Below, piece after piece: positions 1 to 19,382 of a DNA stretch of 22,014 bases; position 1 is the first letter of the stretch, and each line of letters opens with the position of its first letter. The translations under genes were made by a program, and so were the position numbers. Origin of the DNA: a virus. The stretch is taken from positions 1 through 22,014 of IMG/VR virus record IMGVR_UViG_3300031772_004153. The stretch is one strand, 5' to 3'. A model generated the notes under the pieces. The model was not told the origin of the DNA. It saw nothing but the letters and a program-made list of their open reading frames with translations, and did no database searches.

Positions 1-3000
1 TGTGGCAGTTTCGCCACCAGAGGATTCATTTGCATAATCAGAAGCATTGTCAGGCTCTAAAATTTCATCATCATCAGTAATTGCACGTATAGAATTTAGA
101 TCCATTGTATCCAAAGCGGCTTGTTCTTTCTTTAAGATTGCAACTGAAATTGCCTCTTTACGCATTTTTCGCTGTTCATCTTCCCATTCAAGCCCAAGTG
201 AACGATAAAGCGTGTGCAAAGATACTCTTTTTTGTCCGCCTTCGCCCTGTGTTAGCTGCGATAGTACATTCATATAATCACCGGCATCAAATAATGACAT
301 ATGATTCCAGTCAATTTCAGGAACTATTAATTGTTTTTCTGATTTACCGCTGCCCTTTTTGTATTCATAAAAACCTTGAATATGTGATATTGGTGCAAAA
401 ATTTTTCTTTTTAACCACATACTCATCATGTTTCTAAATTGCATATATCGTTGGCGCAAAATATCCATCGCAACGCCGCCATTAGCATATGTAGTATCAG
501 AGCCTCCGTCCATTAATACTGACGGAACTTGCAAACCTACATATATTTCTTTTATTAGTTGAGTGATGTCATTACCAATATCTAAAATGCCTTGACCATA
601 CCCAACTCTCTCTACAGACACGCCTTCATGAGTAAAAATCTTGAAGTCTTTATCGTATTGAGCGGAGTTTCCTTGAATTGTTATTTTCCCATTTCTCCTG
701 GTAATAAACAAACCTGTTGGTACCTCAAAGCACCACACTTTACCATTATAGTTTTCGATTATTAATGGATTTGTTTCTTTTAAACTATTGCCTTTATGAA
801 TTAATGGCGTTCTGCCTTTGCCATTAATATCTTCAGACCAAGAAATATCATAAACTTTAGTGCCCCTGGCTGATGTTGCTAAAAGCGGAACATAGCCACA
901 TTTATAAGCCATTTCATACACATCATCTGCAAGTTGTTTAGAAATTGTTGTATATCTACATAATTTTAGCTTATTTAATTTGCTAAAAGAAACGTTCCCA
1001 TCTCCGCAAACCAATGCCGATAATACTATTTTTAATAATCTTGGTGATAACTCTAAAATCCATTTAGGCATTTTCTTATGTGCAGATGTTGAATCGCCGC
1101 CAACTCCAATTTCATTTTTGAAGTACTCATACAAACCTTTATTGGATATTTTCCCTGACCATATACCATTTTTATTAATGTAATGGCTAGTTTTCATGTC
1201 TAATAATTTTGCAAATTCAGTTAAACACTTTCTCATTTTAGGATAATGTTTTTTATCTGTAATAGTAGATTGGCAAATGCTCGTATAGTAATTTCTGCTG
1301 CTTTTATATACACAGCCTTCACTTAATAGGTATCCAATATACTCTAAATAATTTTCTATTGGAACGCTTTTATCGCAAATATTAGTGGACACAATATCTT
1401 TCCCCGTCCACTTTATATGTGACTTAAACTTATGATAATTATTAATTAATAATTTATCGGCACATAATTTATGCCATGACCCATATTTTGATCCATTTTC
1501 TCTTTTTGAAACCCATAATTTGTGATTAGGCGTGACTTTCAAATCAACTTTTTTGTTAGAAAAATGATACATCTCCCCTTCATAATTATATACGCTCGCG
1601 CCTGTAGGTGTATGGTACTCCAATTCTTCATTATTAGGATTAAAACAAGCGATTTTTACATTATTTTTTGGATAAGCTAAACAAATTGGGTAGCTATAAG
1701 TTCCGTCCATAATTTCAGAATACTGTATTACTTCATCGAACCTTTTAAACCCACTATCTGTAAGTACTTCAGTTTCTTCATCATGACATTCAAAGATTTC
1801 GCGCCAAGCATCTAAATCTGCGTGAGTTGGCTTATAATCGCCGGCTCCCCCTCCAACCTTAACTAAAGTTAGTGGATTGATCATACCGTCAGCTTGAGCA
1901 AATTTACTATTTCCATGAATAGCTAATTTGCCGTTACGTCTTGTTATAAATAATCCTGTTGGAACTTCAAAGCACCAAACTTTTCCATTATAATCAATTT
2001 CATTAATTATTGCCCCACCACCAGCCCCATCTTTGCTTTTTGTTCCAGTATAAACCAATGGTTCGTTGCCATAATCTGTATCTGACCACATAACAATATA
2101 TTCTGTTACAATTCGTCCATCAGATTTTTTTGCAACTGAAACGCAAATATTTGGAACAAATCCGATTTTATAAACTAATTCATATACATCGTCAGCCAGT
2201 TGCTTGGAAATAGTTGAATATTTAAATGACTTAGATTCAGTGCCATATTTACTTTGACTTTTTGAACCATCACCAGATACTAATGAATCTAAAACAATAC
2301 TAAGAAGATCTGGTCTAAGGTTAAGTACCCAACGGGGCAAATGTTTATGTTCTGACCGGGTGGACCCGCTAGTACCAATTTCATTTTTAAAATATTTAAC
2401 TAAATCTTTTCCGTGAATTCTACTTTCCCATTTTTCTTTTGGAGTATTTTTTGAATATCCAGAACCTTTAATATCGATATATGAACAACATTTTACATTT
2501 AATTTATCAGCAAATGCCTCAAATGATTGTCTCATATCTTTATAACAACTACTAGACGTTAACTGATTAACACATATAACAGCATCATAACGGTCATTTT
2601 TAGAATTTTCATAAACACAACCTTCAGATATAATGTATCCAAGAACTTTAAGATAAAGCTTAATAGGGATATGTTTATTATAAATAGCTACATTATCTAT
2701 GTATTCACCAGAAACATATTTTGATTTAGAATTAAATTTATAATATTTCTTCTTAAAAAGAAGATCTTGGGCAGGCCGTTTTATGCTCTCTCCCCAAACA
2801 CCATTTGTTTGTTCTTTTACCCACATTTTATGATTAGGGGAAACTAATGTGTCAATTTTTTTACCAGTAAAATGAAGCATTTTTCCTTCATGATGTGACA
2901 TGTGAAGCTCAGTTGGCTTATGATATTCTATTTCATTTGTGTCTGGATTAACGCATGCAACTTTAAAATTTTCTTTCATGGTCAAAATGGAGTTTATTTT

Positions 3001-4053
3001 TCCGTTTTCATCTAAATCAATGCCATTAACATAATTTGGATTAATAGATACGCTAGTTGTTAATTCTGTTAACTGATCAATAGTTTTAAACCCTTTATCA
3101 GTTAAAACCTCCGTGTCATCAGAATAACATTCTCTTAATTTATCAAATAACATTAGTTGTCTAAATATACAAACAGGCAGCCCAGTGCCTCTAATTTCAT
3201 AAGGACTAATTCTTCTTGCCAAATGAGATACATGGAAGTTATCAAGCGGAATATTGTCGCCCCTCTTAACGCAATCAATTATATGCTGGTTCAACTGCTT
3301 TCGTTGAGCTAAATCTGATGGCTTATTTGACTGTACTATTTTTTTCAAACCTTCATCCGGCCGCATCATTATAATGGGATCGCTAGCAACCGCAGTCTTC
3401 TTAACGATCATATAGTCTGGATTCTGAATTAAAAACCTACTCCATTTTCCGCGGCTTTGATCTAACTCTGCATATATAAATGATTCCCCAAGTAACCAGA
3501 ACTCTTGGGCAATCTGAACACAAACATTCATCAAGTCAGTCTCTTCAATCATATCATTAAAAAACTTTTCAACTTCTTTATTAGGGCACTTTATATTTAA
3601 TTTACTGATTGGATAAGTGCTATGAAGGCTTATTGCATTATGAACAAATGGATTTAATGCGTAAAATGCTCGACACCATGCATTTATTGTAGCACGATCT
3701 CTTGGAAGGTTCAAGTTGCTGCTTAACCATAAAGGAGAATATATTTCTGGCGTTTGCTTTACAGTATCGTTTGTGCCCTTAAACCCACCGCCGCTACTTG
3801 TCACTTGGCTTTGTTTTTTAAATCCAATTGAAGCAGATACATTCGACGCATTAGTAATATTATAATTATTTAATGCTGATGAAGATCCGTCTTTAAATAA
3901 TCCTTGCTCAACCTCTTGCGCCAATGAACTCCGTCGCTCGCTAGACACTGCGTTTGCCATCGTTGCGCTAACATTAGGAATTTGATTATTTTTCGGACTA
4001 TTTATAGATTCACTTCTTTGAACATACTTGGTATTTGATTTAAAATTTGACAT
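1..4053 (-). CDS. Phage portal protein with two inteins (3' end outside window)
   Basis: The portal forms the ring at the head vertex through which DNA is packaged and ejected, and is the docking site for the terminase encoded just upstream. I translated the frame through codon 1351; it has no stop and leaves the window. The N-extein (residues 1-308) opens with a Ser/Asn/Gln-rich stretch, then portal-like segments such as FVHNAISLHS (about 133) and EFWLLGESFIYAELD (about 178). Intein 1 covers residues 309-715, a 40-residue middle extein 716-755, intein 2 756-1129, and the C-extein 1130 onward with VPSVLMDGGSDTTYANGG near 1175. Splicing would leave at least 570 residues, normal for a portal. 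The ATG follows AAGG by seven bases. The portal call rests on extein sequence and on adjacency to the terminase; the intein call is firmer than the exact portal family. Confidence 0.85.
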   Translation of the reverse strand, partial: MSNFKSNTKYVQRSESINSPKNNQIPNVSATMANAVSSERRSSLAQEVEQGLFKDGSSSALNNYNITNASNVSASIGFKKQSQVTSSGGGFKGTNDTVKQTPEIYSPLWLSSNLNLPRDRATINAWCRAFYALNPFVHNAISLHSTYPISKLNIKCPNKEVEKFFNDMIEETDLMNVCVQIAQEFWLLGESFIYAELDQSRGKWSRFLIQNPDYMIVKKTAVASDPIIMMRPDEGLKKIVQSNKPSDLAQRKQLNQHIIDCVKRGDNIPLDNFHVSHLARRISPYEIRGTGLPVCIFRQLMLFDKLRECYSDDTEVLTDKGFKTIDQLTELTTSVSINPNYVNGIDLDENGKINSILTMKENFKVACVNPDTNEIEYHKPTELHMSHHEGKMLHFTGKKIDTLVSPNHKMWVKEQTNGVWGESIKRPAQDLLFKKKYYKFNSKSKYVSGEYIDNVAIYNKHIPIKLYLKVLGYIISEGCVYENSKNDRYDAVICVNQLTSSSCYKDMRQSFEAFADKLNVKCCSYIDIKGSGYSKNTPKEKWESRIHGKDLVKYFKNEIGTSGSTRSEHKHLPRWVLNLRPDLLSIVLDSLVSGDGSKSQSKYGTESKSFKYSTISKQLADDVYELVYKIGFVPNICVSVAKKSDGRIVTEYIVMWSDTDYGNEPLVYTGTKSKDGAGGGAIINEIDYNGKVWCFEVPTGLFITRRNGKLAIHGNSKFAQADGMINPLTLVKVGGGAGDYKPTHADLDAWREIFECHDEETEVLTDSGFKRFDEVIQYSEIMDGTYSYPICLAYPKNNVKIACFNPNNEELEYHTPTGASVYNYEGEMYHFSNKKVDLKVTPNHKLWVSKRENGSKYGSWHKLCADKLLINNYHKFKSHIKWTGKDIVSTNICDKSVPIENYLEYIGYLLSEGCVYKSSRNYYTSICQSTITDKKHYPKMRKCLTEFAKLLDMKTSHYINKNGIWSGKISNKGLYEYFKNEIGVGGDSTSAHKKMPKWILELSPRLLKIVLSALVCGDGNVSFSKLNKLKLCRYTTISKQLADDVYEMAYKCGYVPLLATSARGTKVYDISWSEDINGKGRTPLIHKGNSLKETNPLIIENYNGKVWCFEVPTGLFITRRNGKITIQGNSAQYDKDFKIFTHEGVSVERVGYGQGILDIGNDITQLIKEIYVGLQVPSVLMDGGSDTTYANGGVAMDILRQRYMQFRNMMSMWLKRKIFAPISHIQGFYEYKKGSGKSEKQLIVPEIDWNHMSLFDAGDYMNVLSQLTQGEGGQKRVSLHTLYRSLGLEWEDEQRKMRKEAISVAILKKEQAALDTMDLNSIRAITDDDEILEPDNASDYANESSGGETAT
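667..1788 (-). mobile_element. Intein 2 of the portal, with LAGLIDADG homing endonuclease
   Basis: Second in-frame intein, 374 residues. It begins at Cys (1786-1788) with CHDEETEVLTDSGFKRFDEV. Block B is LKVTPNHKLW, His near residue 89. The endonuclease motifs are IGYLLSEGCVY (about 151) and LSALVCGDG (about 256), with acidic residues kept. It ends VWCFEVPTGLFITRRNGK, then TIQGN before Ser+1. Compared with intein 1 it shares the A, B, endonuclease and C-terminal blocks and internal strings such as ISKQLADDVYE and YFKNEIG. It is 33 residues shorter, with gaps spread through linkers. The DNA of the C-terminal blocks is also clearly similar (about 690-750 against 1930-1990). The terminal block has Gln where intein 1 has His, so C-terminal cleavage may be slower. 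Confidence 0.92.
1909..3129 (-). mobile_element. Intein 1 of the portal, with LAGLIDADG homing endonuclease
   Basis: In-frame protein-splicing element of 407 residues. It begins at Cys (3127-3129) with block A CYSDDTEVLTDKGF. Block B is TLVSPNHKMW with its His near intein residue 100. The two endonuclease motifs are LGYIISEGCVY (about 163) and LDSLVSGDG (about 280), with the acidic residues kept (E and D). The C-terminal block reads VWCFEVPTGLFITRRNGK and ends IHGN, followed by Ser as the +1 extein residue. All nucleophiles needed for splicing are present (Cys1, terminal Asn, Ser+1). The residue before the last Asn is Gly, not the usual His; other phage inteins with RRNGK endings, as I recall, also end in GN. 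Both splicing and homing activity look intact. It is homologous to intein 2 over its full length. Confidence 0.92.
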
Positions 4054-4096: not shown

Positions 4097-5974
4097 TTAC
4101 ATTTTTCTTGATATATGTCCTAAAACTGCCAAAGGCTTATTTGTAGCTGTTTTAGAAGAATTATTGGAAAAATTAAAAGACGGGTTTTTATTTGTAAATG
4201 CGTCAGTTATCAAAAACTTATAAGCAATATAAGCATTTAACAGAGCCATAAACCCATCATTTGGAGTTGATCCTTTAACATAATGTATTGTAGGGTCTCC
4301 ATATTTAGATATCATTGGTTTAATTTCCATACTTGAACAATGATTTATTAGCCAGCCAACTTTTTCAAAATCACCCAATGGAAATCTAATATTTCCAGCT
4401 TTCATTAATTCAAGCAATTCCGCGATATAATAATCTCTTTCAAATACAATTTCTTTTGGGAATGCATCTGCAGTGTATTTAATATTGCCGTTAATCTTGT
4501 TATGAGCCCTTGAAACTAAATATCTATCACCATAAGCTGTGTGCATTATTGTTGAAAAGTCTTGTGAAAACCCGATGTCCCCAATGGCGAGATTAACGCT
4601 ATATTGCCTCATTATTTGGTCTATAATACCTTTTTTGCTCTCTAAATCATTTCTTTTAAATTTTGTTGCAAATTCTATTGACAATAATCCAGGCCCCTTA
4701 AGCGTCAAAACAACTGCGGTGCTATATGATTGGCCCCTCATAGATGTTTTATCTGGATTTGCCAACTGCTCTAAATCTGCTCTTGCACCATAATCTATCC
4801 CTAGAAGAACCATATTTTCTTCTCCAGGAACTATTCTAGCCCTTAGTTTTCTTTCAACATCGCCACATTTTTCTCTTATTTCTTCCGGAGTAATTGGGCT
4901 TGAATCTCCCTGAAAAAACTCTCCTAAGATTTCATTTTGCCAAGACCGTTCTGTTGCAGTAGGACTAACACCAGGTTTTTGTTTCAGAACATCTTCTTTT
5001 GTAAAGTTTGGCATATAAAGCTGATTAAGATGAAACCCAACATATTCGCACTCTTCGGAATCTTTTGATGACACCCATTTACCGCTTTCGGCCGATATTC
5101 TTTTATCTTGCTCAAATCCACAGTGTGTGCACTTAACAATAAATCCATGAAGCCAAATCTTTTCCCATGCATCTGACTCGGGCGTATATAATGGAAAATT
5201 CTTTTTACATTTTGTGCAGCCTAAATAATAATACTGTAATGATGATGATTGCCAAATTTTATGAAAAATAGAACCTTTTTTCTTTGGAGTTCCGAAATAT
5301 ACCTGAACCCCTTGATTTCTTGGGCCATATTTAGATTGCGCCAACATCTTTGTAGCGTTGTTTATTGCATCTTGTGGTATATCTTGAATTTCGTCCATAA
5401 AAATAACGTCAGCACTACGACCACGTAATCTGTCGGCGTCTAGACCAGTTGACTCAATCCAAATGTGATTTCCTCCGGTAAATTGCTTAAAGTGTAATGA
5501 ATCATTGGTGGCAGTGGTGGTATCAATTAAATTTTGCATATACGATTTAATTTTTACACCCTTTTTATCTGTTTGATTTTCTATTAAAGAAGAACTAATC
5601 ATTGGATTAAGTTTAGTTTTTGAATATGCAGCAGCTACCTCTAACTGTGGAAATGCGTGAATAACTCTGATTGGCGGCTTATTTCCAGCTCCAAATAATC
5701 CGCTGCCCATAAAATACATTTCAAGGGCGGCGGCCATTGTAGTTCCACCAACTTGACGACCCTTGACAATAACAACCGGTTTCGCGTCCTTATCTAACGC
5801 TTTGATTCCGACATATCTATATACGTCCGAAAATGGCTTATATCCATTACCACTTAATCTAAACGGCTCGCCTTCAAGAGTTAAATAATGTTCCGCAAAA
5901 CTTACCGGATCAAGATTTAAAAGGGACTTTCTTAATTTATGAAATAATTCATTCTTATCACTTGCATTTGACAT
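4097..5974 (-). CDS. terL: Terminase large subunit, lambda gpA-like
   Basis: The 625-residue DNA-packaging motor: an N-terminal ATPase that drives DNA through the portal and a C-terminal RNase H-like nuclease that cuts concatemers. Seen in order: Walker A-like GRQVGGTT (about 72-79), Walker B VIFMDE (190-195), motif III FGTPKKKGS (228-236), a zinc-ribbon-like insertion CTKC...CTHC (about 253-285), and nuclease acids in LLGIDYG (D394), IGDIGFSQD (D466) and NDGFMALLNAY (about D573). The ribbon between ATPase and nuclease, and a Walker A without lysine in the usual place, both resemble the lambda gpA group. It lies 43 bases upstream of the portal gene, a common pairing. No upstream in-frame start exists before a stop, so the ATG at 5974 stands, although its ribosome binding site is weak. 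No small terminase was recognised. Confidence 0.93.
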   Translation of the reverse strand: MSNASDKNELFHKLRKSLLNLDPVSFAEHYLTLEGEPFRLSGNGYKPFSDVYRYVGIKALDKDAKPVVIVKGRQVGGTTMAAALEMYFMGSGLFGAGNKPPIRVIHAFPQLEVAAAYSKTKLNPMISSSLIENQTDKKGVKIKSYMQNLIDTTTATNDSLHFKQFTGGNHIWIESTGLDADRLRGRSADVIFMDEIQDIPQDAINNATKMLAQSKYGPRNQGVQVYFGTPKKKGSIFHKIWQSSSLQYYYLGCTKCKKNFPLYTPESDAWEKIWLHGFIVKCTHCGFEQDKRISAESGKWVSSKDSEECEYVGFHLNQLYMPNFTKEDVLKQKPGVSPTATERSWQNEILGEFFQGDSSPITPEEIREKCGDVERKLRARIVPGEENMVLLGIDYGARADLEQLANPDKTSMRGQSYSTAVVLTLKGPGLLSIEFATKFKRNDLESKKGIIDQIMRQYSVNLAIGDIGFSQDFSTIMHTAYGDRYLVSRAHNKINGNIKYTADAFPKEIVFERDYYIAELLELMKAGNIRFPLGDFEKVGWLINHCSSMEIKPMISKYGDPTIHYVKGSTPNDGFMALLNAYIAYKFLITDAFTNKNPSFNFSNNSSKTATNKPLAVLGHISRKM

Positions 5975-7622: not shown

Positions 7623-8150
7623 TTATGGCAATATAACGCCAGTTGGTTTAAAGCATTTTTCAGTATTGCTTATTCCATAATACAAGTTTTTAGTTTCCGC
7701 AGGCTCTTCGTCTATAACCCTCTCGTTTCCATCTTGAATGCCAAAAGGATTAAATTTAATTGGATCCGGGCTATCTTCAGTTCCATAATATAATTTACTA
7801 ATAGGATGACCATCTTTATCTGTTAATTCTGGATTAATATTATCAAGAAGCCCGATCTGCAAAACCTCTTCATATGGTATAGTATTAACACTTTCATCAT
7901 CAATAAAATCTATATTATTTTTATCAGCAGCAAATGCCAGCAAAGCAAGCTTTCGTTTTCTATTTTTTCGATTTCGTTTTTTCTTCAAAAAATCTGATAC
8001 ACTTTTGTATTTATGTATATTTGAAAAAAAACCTGTTCCGGGACCTTGTTTGGCTGGGCCGTTAACACCCTCAGTTTCGTATAAATCATAGTTCTTGAAA
8101 AATACCGGCGGCCTAGTGTAAACACGAGGAGATTTGCTTTTACTGGCCAT
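7623..8150 (-). CDS. Unknown small protein with basic patch
   Basis: 175 residues, no recognised family. The N-terminal part is basic and aromatic (SPRVYTRPPVFFKNYDLYE), followed by a very basic helix KKKRNRKNRKRKLALLAF (about residues 55-72) that could contact DNA or a capsid surface. The remainder is acidic with many Asp, Asn and Pro. A strong Shine-Dalgarno, GGAGGAG, stands five bases before the ATG. The start overlaps the end of the nucleotidyltransferase gene by 11 bases, so the two are probably translated from one message. It has no Cys-pair motif, transmembrane segment or signal peptide. Confidence 0.8.
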   Translation of the reverse strand: MASKSKSPRVYTRPPVFFKNYDLYETEGVNGPAKQGPGTGFFSNIHKYKSVSDFLKKKRNRKNRKRKLALLAFAADKNNIDFIDDESVNTIPYEEVLQIGLLDNINPELTDKDGHPISKLYYGTEDSPDPIKFNPFGIQDGNERVIDEEPAETKNLYYGISNTEKCFKPTGVILP

Positions 8151-8910
8151 TTTTCTCCTCCTTAATTCTTTTTATATAATATGGATATAATTTTTCTGAT
8201 ATCGGAATATAATTCCATAAGCCCATTTTATCTAGTAATTTTAACGTCTTATCAGGATTGTAATCCATTGATTTATTTAATTTTTGAGTTAATGATTTTT
8301 CAGATGCAAACCTAACAGACTCCGGATTTGCTTTTATCCAAGATATTATTTTATCATCAACATCAAAATCAAGCTTTGCGGCAAGATAAATAGCTCTAAC
8401 TACCCTATTTTTGTTTGCCATTAGTGTTGTTGAGGGGTCTAGACAACAAACAATTTTTTTACTTTTTATATCTTTTATTCCGCAGCTTGTAGGGTCTATA
8501 ATTGTTTTAAGATCGAATGACATGAGAAGGGCGTTACATGTAAAATCTCTGCTATAAATTTCTCGTTGCATATCTGTGGGCGCTTTAATTCCTTTGCGCT
8601 TTAATATATTATCTATGTTTGGCGTATTAAAATTTGAAGAAAAATCAATCTTTAACCCGCCAATAAATATAGATGAGTGCCCGTCATCAGCTATTTTTGC
8701 AGTGATTTTATAATCTTTCCCTAATCTTAAGGACGTTTCTTTTGCCAATAAACTTACCGATTTATCGCCGGTTGTTATATCAAGATCAGAAATATTATCT
8801 AGCCTTCCCATTAACTTATCGCGAGACGCACCTCCACATACAAAAGGAGTAGAGTACCCTTTTTCGGAAGCTATTTTACTCATTAGATCTATAATATATT
8901 TTAGTTTCAC
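8140..8910 (-). CDS. CCA-adding/poly(A) polymerase-type nucleotidyltransferase, short form
   Basis: A 256-residue member of the class II tRNA CCA-adding / poly(A) polymerase family, enzymes that add nucleotides to RNA 3' ends. Seen: the signature GGASRDKLMG (26-35) with SDLDI (about D42, D44) supplying the metal-binding acids, a further acid in LKIDFSS (about D89), RDFTCNAL (121-128), and RVVRAIYLAAKLDF (169-182), which matches the conserved RxLRAIRFAxxLGF block. The section after about 200 resembles the bacterial ERI..EL.K linker and ends early. Bacterial enzymes are usually near 400 residues, so the C-terminal body/tail that grips tRNA is largely missing. I see no clear EDxxR nucleotide-selection motif. 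The start is GTG at 8910, with AAGG five bases upstream. Family firm; exact substrate unknown. Confidence 0.85.
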   Translation of the reverse strand: MKLKYIIDLMSKIASEKGYSTPFVCGGASRDKLMGRLDNISDLDITTGDKSVSLLAKETSLRLGKDYKITAKIADDGHSSIFIGGLKIDFSSNFNTPNIDNILKRKGIKAPTDMQREIYSRDFTCNALLMSFDLKTIIDPTSCGIKDIKSKKIVCCLDPSTTLMANKNRVVRAIYLAAKLDFDVDDKIISWIKANPESVRFASEKSLTQKLNKSMDYNPDKTLKLLDKMGLWNYIPISEKLYPYYIKRIKEEKNGQ

Positions 8911-15159: not shown

Positions 15160-15243
15160 ATGTTGTGCACAATTTATATGCTTACAAACAAAATAAATGA
15201 AAAAAATATACATAGGCCAAACATGGAACAAACCGGAAGATAG
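15160..15243 (+). pseudogene. Displaced 5' part of the frameshifted GIY-YIG endonuclease gene
   Basis: A 27-codon frame starting at an ATG with AAAGGA seven bases upstream, the best ribosome binding site near this gene. It encodes MLCTIYMLTNKINEK, the expected first strand of a GIY-YIG nuclease with its conserved Tyr, then runs out of frame after the A7 run at 15200-15206. The rest of the motif, KKIYIGQTW, lies in the +1 frame. Removing one A would join both parts into one normal nuclease. So the intact gene would be 15160-16063. Confidence 0.8.
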
Positions 15244-16063
15244 AATGGGCAAAGAAGGCGGGAAATATATGAATTCAATATATTTGTATGCCTCAATAGT
15301 TAAATACGGTCACGAAAACTTTGAATACTCTGTCTTGGCACAATACGAAACCCAGGAAGAGGCGGATGCAATGGAAGACTATTATATTGTTTTGTTTCAA
15401 AGTAGAGATAGTGATGTGGGATATAACTTAAAAGCGGGTGGAAGGGGAGGAAAACATTCTGAAGAGTCTAAAAAGAAAATATCAGAATCATTAAAGGGCG
15501 AAAAATCTTACTGGTTTGGCAAACGGCTGTCGAATGAGACGAAACAAAAAATATCAAAAGCAAACAGCGGAAGAGAACGTACCAAAGAAGCAAAACTAAA
15601 GACGTCTAAAACCATGACAGAACATCATAAAAATAATATTCACCCAATGCAGGGTAAAACGCATACGCAAGAAGCAATAAAGAAAATTAGCGAGTCAAGC
15701 AAAGGACGAGTTTTTTCTCCGGAATCATTAAAAAAACGTGGAATTGCAAGAAGAATGAGTAAAGAAAGGGAACAAAAAATTATAGAAGTGTTTTTAACCG
15801 GGATTCCATATGTACAAATGATAGAATTATTAGATACAAACGCACCGACAATACGAAGAGTGATATTACGAAATAATATACCTCTTGAACGTGAAAAAGA
15901 CCATCATCATTGGCTTGGAAAGGTACATTCTGATAAAACAAAAGAACAAATGTCGGAAAATATGATAAAAGCATGGGTAATAAGAAAATTAAATAAGCAG
16001 AAAAAATTAGAATCGATAAATAATGTAGATGATAAGAATGGCAAACGCGAAGAGAGCGATTAA
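15197..16063 (+). CDS. GIY-YIG homing endonuclease with NUMOD3 repeats, N-terminus frameshifted
   Basis: Free-standing homing endonuclease, the only plus-strand gene. From the internal ATG it reads 288 residues: KKIYIGQTW (YIG half of the catalytic motif), a probable catalytic Glu in EADAMEDYY (about E60), GYNLKAGG, then several NUMOD3-type DNA-binding repeats (KHSEESKKKISESLKG, RLSNETKQKISKANSG, THTQEAIKKISESSKG, about 85-175). A helix-turn-helix-like segment follows (about 195-230, REQKIIEVFLTG...APTIRRVILRNN). The GIY half is in another frame upstream, so this product would lack the first strand and its Tyr. The ATG at 15197 directly follows a stop and has no good ribosome site. The 3' end carries a 27-bp copy of sequence from the convergent HTH gene, and the two stop codons overlap. 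Likely broken, or read by slippage at A7. Confidence 0.85.
   Translation: MKKIYIGQTWNKPEDRMGKEGGKYMNSIYLYASIVKYGHENFEYSVLAQYETQEEADAMEDYYIVLFQSRDSDVGYNLKAGGRGGKHSEESKKKISESLKGEKSYWFGKRLSNETKQKISKANSGRERTKEAKLKTSKTMTEHHKNNIHPMQGKTHTQEAIKKISESSKGRVFSPESLKKRGIARRMSKEREQKIIEVFLTGIPYVQMIELLDTNAPTIRRVILRNNIPLEREKDHHHWLGKVHSDKTKEQMSENMIKAWVIRKLNKQKKLESINNVDDKNGKREESD
16022..16048 (+). repeat. Inverted repeat copy A, in the GIY-YIG gene
   Basis: 27 bases coding NVDDKNGKR near the endonuclease C-terminus. It matches, in inverted orientation, 25 of 27 bases of 16165-16191 in the HTH gene, and the match is in the same reading frame in both genes. The two differences are a synonymous third base (GTA/GTC) and one substitution (Asp/Tyr). 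Similarity ends abruptly after the last base, while at most a base or two match beyond the other end. Confidence 0.9.
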
Positions 16064-16500
16064 AACTTCTCTTCTCGCAATTCTCGCATACGACTTAATA
16101 TTTCCATTATACGCGTATCATTTTGAATAATTTTACTTAATTTCTTTTTGGCTCCACCATAAATGCGTTTGCCATTCTTATAATCGACATTACCGTTTAT
16201 GCTTTTTGTGATACTGCTCTGATTGACATTTAACATTTTAGCTATTTCCATTTGAGTATAACCATCAGCATATAATTTAATAACCTGTTTCTGTCTATCA
16301 GTTAAAAGACTATTCACGACCCTCCAAAATTCACCGCGAAGTTCCTCTTCCAAATCAATCAGTTCTTCATTATACATAAATGAATCGAGCCTATTAGATA
16401 TGCTGTCAGAGTTTGTGAACGATTCCATCATATCATTGCTACAAACCGTCTCAAGAAGAATATATTGGTAACGGTCAGATCTGTTTTGCCTTCTATCCAT
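16060..16500 (-). CDS. Sigma-region-4-like helix-turn-helix protein
   Basis: 146-residue DNA-binding protein, probably a phage transcription regulator or minimal sigma-like factor. The HTH spans about 65-103: LTDRQKQVIKLYADGYTQMEI, then AKMLNVNQSSITKSING, the pattern of sigma-70 region 4 and LuxR-type domains. A Lys-rich helix follows (IYGGAKKKLSKII). The N-terminal 60 residues are acidic and helical and lack an obvious sigma region 2, so full sigma activity is uncertain; a terminase-small-subunit-like role is another option for a short HTH phage protein. GGAG stands five bases before the ATG, which overlaps the end of the upstream GIY-YIG gene by eight bases. Its 3' end overlaps the plus-strand endonuclease stop. 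Confidence 0.8.
   Translation of the reverse strand: MDRRQNRSDRYQYILLETVCSNDMMESFTNSDSISNRLDSFMYNEELIDLEEELRGEFWRVVNSLLTDRQKQVIKLYADGYTQMEIAKMLNVNQSSITKSINGNVDYKNGKRIYGGAKKKLSKIIQNDTRIMEILSRMRELREEKF
16165..16191 (-). repeat. Inverted repeat copy B, in the HTH gene
   Basis: 27 bases coding NVDYKNGKR at about residues 104-112 of the HTH protein, directly after its helix-turn-helix. This is probably the original copy, because it lies inside a continuous conserved-looking segment (SINGNVDYKNGKRIYGGA), whereas copy A sits at an otherwise unrelated tail. The 116-base segment between the copies contains the 3' ends of both convergent genes. Confidence 0.9.
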
Positions 16501-17257
16501 TAGAACTCCATTTTATGTTATTTCGTATCAAAATTTCTCTTATTGTAGTTTTGCAACAATTAAATTTTTTAGCCATCCCAGCTCTTGTTATTCCTCCTGC
16601 CAAGTAAACATCACATATTTCTTTTTCTTTATCTGGCGTGAAAATATTGTTTCCGTTTCTATGACCAGTGTAATTAGATTTTCGCATTTTTATATTATGT
16701 CTAATCAGAATATTAATTATTAAAGGTCTATTGCAGTTGAATTGTTTTCCCAAAAAGTAAGTTGATTTGTTGCTATTTACATATAAATCACATATTTGCA
16801 TTTCAACTTCTTCTGCAAACCGTCTTCTTTCTTTTAATTCCGTGCCCACTAAGCTTTTAGATATATTATTTTTCCACTCATCGGAAAATACTTTACCTGC
16901 ATTTGTGCCGGGTTTTCCGATTGAAGATTTGGATATATTATTTTTCCATTCTTCTGTTCTTGGTGAAGTATTTCCACCTAAACCAACATTATACCCTATT
17001 TGTTTGTCAGTTCCATTATATTGATTTATAACTTCAGCTTCAAGAATATTTGCATCATATAAGTTTTTTGTGGTAGCAATAACCTCAAAAACAAAAAACT
17101 CGATGCCGTATTTAATCATGGCTCGAGTAATTAATAGATTATTATTCCCACATTTAGCTTTAGATTTATGGTTTGACCAACGACTATTAGGATTATTAGT
17201 TTGACCTATATAAATCTTCTGGTTTACTATATTCGTTATTTTGTAGATATAATGCAC
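16493..17257 (-). CDS. GIY-YIG homing endonuclease, intact
   Basis: 254-residue free-standing homing endonuclease. I start it at the GTG at 17257, four bases after GGAG, giving the typical opening MHYIYKITNIVNQKIYIGQT; a TTG at 17270-17272 would add five residues with no ribosome site. Catalytic features are complete: Tyr of IYK (about 4-5), YIG (16-18), Arg/His in SRWSNH (about 26-30), Glu in ILEAEVI (73) and Asn in GYNVGLGG (90). Two NUMOD3-like units follow (TEEWKNNISKSSIG, SDEWKNNISKSLVG). The C-terminus has two related HTH-like repeats (about 150-190 and 208-248), each ending ILIRxNIK. Its 3' end overlaps the HTH gene start by eight bases. It differs clearly from the plus-strand GIY-YIG enzyme. 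Confidence 0.9.
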   Translation of the reverse strand: MHYIYKITNIVNQKIYIGQTNNPNSRWSNHKSKAKCGNNNLLITRAMIKYGIEFFVFEVIATTKNLYDANILEAEVINQYNGTDKQIGYNVGLGGNTSPRTEEWKNNISKSSIGKPGTNAGKVFSDEWKNNISKSLVGTELKERRRFAEEVEMQICDLYVNSNKSTYFLGKQFNCNRPLIINILIRHNIKMRKSNYTGHRNGNNIFTPDKEKEICDVYLAGGITRAGMAKKFNCCKTTIREILIRNNIKWSSNG

Positions 17258-17326
17258 CAGGCTCCAGTACAATTTATTCTTGCTATGTGGAACAAACCTT
17301 ACTGAGTTATATATATCTTAATATTA

Positions 17327-18419: not shown

Positions 18420-19382
18420 TTAATGTTTCTCCAAATGTTTCACTAAATATTTTATATCAGACGGATACTCAACATTAATATTTACAATTTGATTTCCTTT
18501 TCTTGCAACACCAAGATTTGAAATACTAATCGAATCTTTATTTTTTGTTTTTTTAGGAATCGTTATTTCATGCTGGCCATCAAGAGTTTTCACAGAAATT
18601 GTACGCCCTTTTAGAGCGTCAAGAAGCGAAATTGTTGTAGACGTATGCACATCCTGATCCTTAACCGAGAAATTATCCAGGGGTTCTACATTTATTTGTA
18701 TTAACGCGTCTGTAAATGCATCTCCAGATTGAAACATATTGTTTACCGATTCAACAAAATTACCCATACCTTCCAATCTCAAAGTATTTCCGTTTGATAC
18801 GCCAGGAGGTATTAAAACAGAAATGCTGCTTGTTGAAGATATTCCTCCTGTCCCAGAACATTTTTTACATGATTCGGTTTGTCTTTTGCCCCCGCATGAT
18901 CCGCAAGTTGTCTGCATTATCATATTACCTTGCCTTGTAACCGTCACACCTCTTCCTTGGCATTGCTGACACCCATTGTGAAGAGTATATTGACCTTGAC
19001 CTTCACAATCTTCACATTTTATATTACGATCATATTTAAATTCTTTTGATACGCCAAATACGGCTTCCTTAAAAGAAATAGATGTTTTTAAGTGAATTGG
19101 CTGTGGTTGCTTGTTATGCCTTTGCTGCTGTTTATGCATACCACCAAAAAAATCATGAATATTAAACCCTGGCTGCCCATGAAATTGTTGTGGCTGATGG
19201 TCTTCTCCTTTTTTAATTGTTTCATATGCTTGATTTATTTGCTTAAATTTATCTTCGGCGCCAGGTTCTTTATTTACGTCAGGGTGATACTTTTTTGTTA
19301 GATCACGATATTTTTTCTTCGCATCATCTTCGGAAGAAGTTGGTGGAATGCCCAATACAGAATATGCTTCTTGTAGTCTCAT
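18420..19382 (-). CDS. dnaJ: DnaJ (Hsp40) co-chaperone, class A
   Basis: 320 residues. The J domain (1-60) has YSVLGIPPTSSEDDAKKKYR and the essential HPD (33-35), which stimulates DnaK ATPase. A short Gly/His/Gln-rich linker (about 62-95) replaces the usual Gly/Phe region. The cysteine-rich domain has four repeats: CEDCEGQG, CQQCQGRG, CGSCGGKR and CKKCSGTG (about 123-179), the third departing from CxxCxGxG at its end. C-terminal substrate-binding domains follow. Bacterial DnaJ is about 375 residues, so the linker and tail are shortened. No DnaK or GrpE is in the window, so it would work with the host DnaK, for example in replication-complex remodelling or virion protein folding. It is part of the resolvase-primase cluster. 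Confidence 0.93.
   Translation of the reverse strand: MRLQEAYSVLGIPPTSSEDDAKKKYRDLTKKYHPDVNKEPGAEDKFKQINQAYETIKKGEDHQPQQFHGQPGFNIHDFFGGMHKQQQRHNKQPQPIHLKTSISFKEAVFGVSKEFKYDRNIKCEDCEGQGQYTLHNGCQQCQGRGVTVTRQGNMIMQTTCGSCGGKRQTESCKKCSGTGGISSTSSISVLIPPGVSNGNTLRLEGMGNFVESVNNMFQSGDAFTDALIQINVEPLDNFSVKDQDVHTSTTISLLDALKGRTISVKTLDGQHEITIPKKTKNKDSISISNLGVARKGNQIVNINVEYPSDIKYLVKHLEKH

Follow-up and report, generated by a model that had tools for sequence, protein, structure and literature searches.

The window analysed here is the whole 22,014-nucleotide (nt) virus record IMGVR_UViG_3300031772_004153 of IMG/VR (positions 1 to 22,014), and at one end it carries a phage portal gene that is interrupted by two inteins. 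The gene is a single open reading frame of 1351 amino acids on the minus strand (1..4053), with no internal stop and truncated at its 3′ end by the edge of the contig; the homologous frame of a second assembly (L082; L-numbers denote related viral contigs or loci in this analysis) encodes 1369 amino acids and runs from stop to stop. In order of translation, and all on the minus strand, the gene encodes a 308-residue N-extein ending in QLMLFDKLRE (3130..4053), intein A of 407 residues (1909..3129), a 40-residue middle extein (1789..1908, SKFAQADG...WREIFE), intein B of 374 residues (667..1788) and a 222-residue C-extein starting SAQYDKDFKIF (1..666). A preliminary description of this DNA had proposed the same single-frame layout, and on rechecking its coordinates and lengths matched ours exactly.

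By sequence, the host protein is a portal. Joined in silico, the three exteins (570 amino acids) match the portal protein family phrog_16240 (E-value 1e-54, residues 105-454), and the match crosses both joins (308/309 and 348/349) unbroken. Together with 80 intein-free portals in which both sites are uninterrupted, this alignment bears out the earlier proposal that the exteins form one continuous portal once the inserts are removed. A second portal family, phrog_2833, is matched with an E-value of 3e-26, and among isolates Bacillus phage G has the closest portal (35% identity). A portal sequence search against the PDB gave no match, and the AlphaFold model of a relative (L002), made as a check of the portal fold, had a predicted local distance difference test (pLDDT) score of 45.6, too low for use.

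Anatomy of the two inteins

Alignment, AlphaFold and Foldseek agree with the preliminary description that the gene holds two full-length homologous inteins, 40 residues apart, with two LAGLIDADG motifs each. Both begin with Cys1, end in Gly-Asn, carry Thr or Ser together with His in block B (TPNH or SPNH) and are followed by a Ser at position +1. In intein A, the alignment places block B (VSPNHKMW) at 2821..2844, the first LAGLIDADG motif (..LGYIISEG) at 2617..2652, the second (..LVSGDG) at 2266..2301, where Pfam LAGLIDADG_3 also matches, and blocks F and G (VWCFEVPTGLFITRRNGKLAIHGN) at 1909..1983. The same elements of intein B are block B (VTPNHKLW, 1513..1536), the two LAGLIDADG motifs (..IGYLLSEG, 1312..1347; ..LVCGDG, 997..1032) and blocks F and G (KVWCFEVPTGLFITRRNGKITIQGN, 667..741), again on the minus strand and located by alignment. 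Pfam LAGLIDADG_3 recognizes both inteins (1e-08 for A, 1.6e-05 for B), and the acidic residues of the LAGLIDADG motifs are kept in both (SEG and GDG).

These features are typical of the family. In an alignment of 53 single inteins, Cys1 is present in 52 of the 52 whose start is available, the block B His in 53 of 53, the first LAGLIDADG acid in 53 of 53 and the second in 52 of 53. The AlphaFold model of intein A is confident (pLDDT 90.7), and its top Foldseek matches are homing-endonuclease inteins (TliVMA, PhoVMA, PI-PfuI and PI-SceI; PDB 7qsu, 7qst, 1dq3 and 1vde), with E-values down to 8.7e-16. The model shares their architecture of a Hint domain plus a LAGLIDADG endonuclease, although sequence identity in the structural alignment is only 10–15%. 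Intein A is thus assigned the Hint fold by predicted structure and intein B by homology. On this evidence both inserts are class-1-type inteins with LAGLIDADG homing endonucleases, and we predict that they are active in splicing and in DNA cleavage.

Site-specific lineages and their distribution

Searches of viral contigs yielded about 50 distinct relatives of these inteins in portal genes. Inteins A and B are 42% identical to each other over 409 columns (E-value 7e-105), the shared blocks quoted in the preliminary description are present in the alignment, and near their C-termini the two have an identical stretch of 22 residues. Same-site inteins from other phages are closer: up to 73% identical to window A and up to 61% to window B. 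In the tree, window A is sister to the site-A intein of L083 (support 99/91) and window B groups with the site-B inteins of L110 and L144 (99/95). The nearest rows of both are same-site inteins whether the tree is built from the whole intein, the splicing part or the endonuclease part. The term paralogues, used in the preliminary description, therefore holds as a statement of homology but not of a recent origin within this phage, as each intein groups with same-site inteins elsewhere.

Most relatives carry no intein at all. A census of 80 loci, seeded on the C-extein alone, comprised 65 loci with no intein, 6 with A only, 5 with B only, 3 with A and B, and 1 with a double at site A. The three A+B loci comprise the window's twin plus another phage present in two assemblies. 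In a tree built from 127 portals, A+B doubles occur in four separate portal lineages and require four changes, the intein labels change 25 times, and the portal that is sister to the window's (L002) has neither intein. Related neighbouring inteins in one gene, described earlier as unusual, are less rare than that suggests: besides the A+B pairs in four lineages, related portals have further insertion sites. The intein-B frame is broken in L095 and L172, contigs nearly identical to L094 (99.96%), by what looks like a deletion within the endonuclease part, either real or an assembly error.

Position 309, the +1 residue of site A, is Ser in 80 of 80 empty portals. At site B, most empty portals have Glu at position 349, where most carriers have Ser. 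Certain B inteins are inserted a codon further on (FEE|SQYD), and one intein (L104) ends in Gln.

We propose, with a probability of about 0.88, that A and B are two neighbouring site-specific homing inteins and that this phage was invaded at each site on separate occasions. The case for independent invasions comes from the separate, site-tied lineages, from the mostly empty relatives and from the recurrence of A+B in four portal lineages. Lineage A (after portal residue 308) and lineage B (after residue 348) would have spread by homing into empty alleles, and each intein would excise itself so that the 308-, 40- and 222-residue exteins join into a normal portal. At site B, given the distribution of Glu and Ser at position 349, co-conversion in the course of homing probably turned the usual +1 Glu into the Ser nucleophile required for splicing. 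Lineages A and B are also related to each other, most likely through an intein that once shifted site within the portal gene.

Site change and turnover in related portals

Related portals provide a clear example of such a change of site. The intein of L151 (5001-6203) lies deep in the B lineage, as sister to that of L149 (support 100/99), yet is inserted at site A. Forcing all site-A inteins together is rejected by the approximately unbiased (AU) test (p-AU 4.3e-06); with L151 left out, the constraint is not rejected (p 0.215).

L151 also suggests turnover. Its 328-residue N-extein is identical to that of L173, but the inteins that the two carry at the same site are only 43% identical and are alike at the DNA level over only the first ~50 residues. 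We take this as a sign of intein replacement at one site within one phage population. Along with the sporadic distribution, it lends indirect support to homing, and the best-supported reading treats the inteins as selfish homing elements whose removal by splicing leaves the host protein unharmed.

Other portals are invaded elsewhere. A further site (site C) near portal residue 406 (DT|TYANGG) is occupied in L134 (4125-7982) and L159 (3075-6831), each of which also has an intein at or near site A, and a related intein lies at portal residue ~132 in L107 (5001-6191). Shared target DNA was considered and rejected: precisely at the junctions of site A (309) and site B (349), 8.4 of 30 bases agree (fraction 0.47), the level expected by chance. 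Shifted by one codon to 350, the position of some B inteins, 14.1 of 30 bases agree (fraction 0.003), and near site C the register at 406 gives a fraction of 0.005. As these registers were picked after seeing the data, and as no likeness appears at 407, the actual junction of site C, the similarity at 350 and 406 is only a hint.

One portal, that of L174 (1434-8681), has a frame of 2416 amino acids that holds five inteins (429, 394, 335, 146 and 340 amino acids). The second sits at the same place as the L107 intein, the 146-residue member is a mini-intein, and some are separated by exteins of only 6 and 4 residues. The boundaries of inteins 1, 2 and 4 were placed by eye; with all five removed, the protein aligns with the window portal across every join. 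Pfam Intein_splicing matches within L174 at 1e-29. In the literature consulted, the highest count named for one gene is four inteins (PMC1635734). The C-terminal part of the L174 frame (amino acids ~2284-2361) is a fused DUF559/MTES_1575 nuclease-like domain.

Back-to-back inteins in two relatives

In L096 (3770-6058) and L295 (2577-4874), two inteins occupy site A with no extein between them (..RRNGK[IV]T[IV]QYAN|[SA]YDE..); a search for more junctions of this kind returned only these two contigs. Each unit has lost different splicing residues. The first keeps Cys1, but Leu and Ser replace the Thr and His of block B, and Asn replaces the Cys of block F. The second keeps blocks B, F and G, and has Ser (L096) or Ala (L295) in place of Cys1. 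None of these losses occurs in any single intein of the 53-row alignment, and both endonuclease acids are kept in all four units. The L096 and L295 portals are sisters (support 90), as are the two first units (support 100); the second units have differing nearest relatives.

The simplest reading, which we consider an even bet, is that these are inteins fused at one site which, having decayed in complementary ways, would splice only as one composite of ~765 residues with two intact-looking endonucleases. The other account, for these two contigs only, is of independent inteins spliced in sequence, with the second using a class-2-like or Ser1 route and the first doing without its block B His. It has precedent: inteins without a block B His or an N-terminal nucleophile can splice (PMC7664689), and the second L096 intein does have Ser at position 1. 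The second L295 intein has Ala there, however, and in both contigs the first unit lacks the same residues (the Thr and His of block B and the Cys of block F) and the second has lost position 1, whereas single inteins keep Cys1, the block B His and the block F Cys. Splicing in sequence is accordingly a real possibility that we do not favour.

Alternative explanations for the window pair

One alternative is that the A+B pair moves between phages as one unit (co-homing). Both inteins are intact and only 120 base pairs of extein lie between them, so that one conversion tract could carry both. Yet the partners are not constant: the A and B inteins combined in the window, in L091 and in L094 come from different positions in their clades, L097 has yet another A intein, and singles outnumber doubles in the census. 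In haloarchaeal MCM, moreover, co-homing of neighbouring inteins is inefficient and without phylogenetic support (PMC10643990). We regard joint movement as very improbable.

Slightly less probable still is a function for the pair. The preliminary description had suggested that order-dependent splicing could act as a timing step in head assembly, in which case both inteins would be retained because ordered double splicing times formation of the portal ring. An unspliced precursor would indeed be unlikely to form a ring. The idea has no support: the closest portal (L002) and 65 of the 80 close relatives manage without inteins, the intein labels switch on and off across the portal tree, and the pairing of A with B is not conserved. 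Each window intein also has the complete set of splicing residues and looks self-sufficient.

The weakest alternative is that one intein was duplicated within the phage itself, or that misassembly doubled it, leaving true local paralogues. The 42% identity and shared blocks, the 22-residue stretch included, speak for it. We reject it on the trees, in which each intein is closer to same-site copies elsewhere than to the other, on a DNA match so patchy (at best 80% over 83 nt) that A and B are neither recent copies nor an assembly duplication, and on another IMG/VR contig that has the same A+B pair and is 99.976% identical over 21,129 nt. Gene conversion between the window inteins is likewise unsupported: the C-terminal block is common to most family members and DNA identity is only 80%.

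Several observations weigh against the proposal of two active homing inteins that invaded separately. The penultimate residue of both is Gly rather than the common His, as in 43 of the 53 single rows; natural inteins without this His can still splice (PMC7664689), so its absence does not exclude them from class 1. The Pfam intein-splicing model stays below threshold for both window inteins, and NCBIfam TIGR01445 (intein_Nterm) meets only intein B (residues 1-92), at an E-value of 0.00098 that is under the curated cut-off; sequence models alone would therefore miss the splicing part. Our predictions of splicing and cleavage are drawn wholly from sequence. The IMG/VR twin is not fully independent, as the same community, sampled in a related collection, could be its source. 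Finally, the A/B split is imperfect: the site-B inteins of L137, L147, L152 and L156 branch near the base or within the A clade, mostly with weak support. From those near the base, site B may be older than site A.

Comparison with known systems

Multi-intein genes, portal inteins and neighbouring inteins are already known. The closest parallel is the haloarchaeal MCM-a/MCM-d pair (PMC10643990): two LAGLIDADG inteins at close sites in an essential gene, gained and lost sporadically and independently, and falling into allelic lineages. There too an extein residue must become Ser for splicing (Pro to Ser in MCM, Glu to Ser here). MCM is an archaeal helicase, by contrast, and the portal a phage structural gene, and homing has been measured in MCM, whereas for the portal it is deduced. 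In the portal gene, furthermore, the site lineages are mutually related, with at least one case of an intein that moved between sites.

Other systems share single features. The TerL of a delta-group crAss-like phage has two inteins in one phage packaging gene (PMC7886860), although in another gene and of another named type (Hint-Hop), and no site lineages are traced in the available part of that report. Cluster C1 mycobacteriophages have an intein in the portal protein (PMC5050341); the accessible portion of that source covers six phages under one PORT entry and reports no double. Among mycobacteriophages, the closest sequences to intein A share just ~25% identity with it and belong to a different gene. 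The ribonucleotide reductase of Trichodesmium erythraeum (cited in PMC1635734) also combines several inteins in one gene, a cellular one, with four compared with the five of L174. Mycobacterium smegmatis DnaB has two inteins in one protein (PMC6195587), but one is a mini-intein without an endonuclease (PMC10643990), unlike the window inteins, which keep both motif pairs. A cellular origin was looked for in genome contigs and rejected, since the closest inteins of cellular genomes, mostly archaeal, reach only ~28% identity.

The window double is a clean but ordinary case of a portal-gene intein hotspot, and the novelty lies in the relatives, with their fusions and site change. It has long been asked how inteins come to occupy new sites; ectopic moves are considered very rare, inteins usually being most like those at the same site elsewhere (PMC1635734). 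One gene here brings together related neighbouring lineages, a change of site, swaps in a near-identical portal background, fusions and a relative with five inteins, so that small constructs would suffice to test both ectopic homing and the merging of inteins. If the composite reading and the A/B site switch hold, the portal gene would be a place to catch inteins colonising new sites and merging.

Genomic context

Directly upstream of the portal gene lies a large terminase gene without an intein (4097..5974, minus strand; Pfam GpA_ATPase 6.5e-17, phrog_675 terminase 3.8e-58). The window phage and its relatives are probably jumbo phages, because related portals sit on contigs of up to 480 kb. 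Searches of the window found no group I introns (Rfam) and no tRNA genes. The window further encodes a poly(A)-polymerase-head nucleotidyltransferase (8140-8910, minus strand), a complete DnaJ homologue (18420-19382, minus strand) and two GIY-YIG homing endonucleases (15197-16063, plus strand; 16493-17272, minus strand), the first of which has NUMOD3 motifs and lies on the strand opposite to its neighbouring genes.

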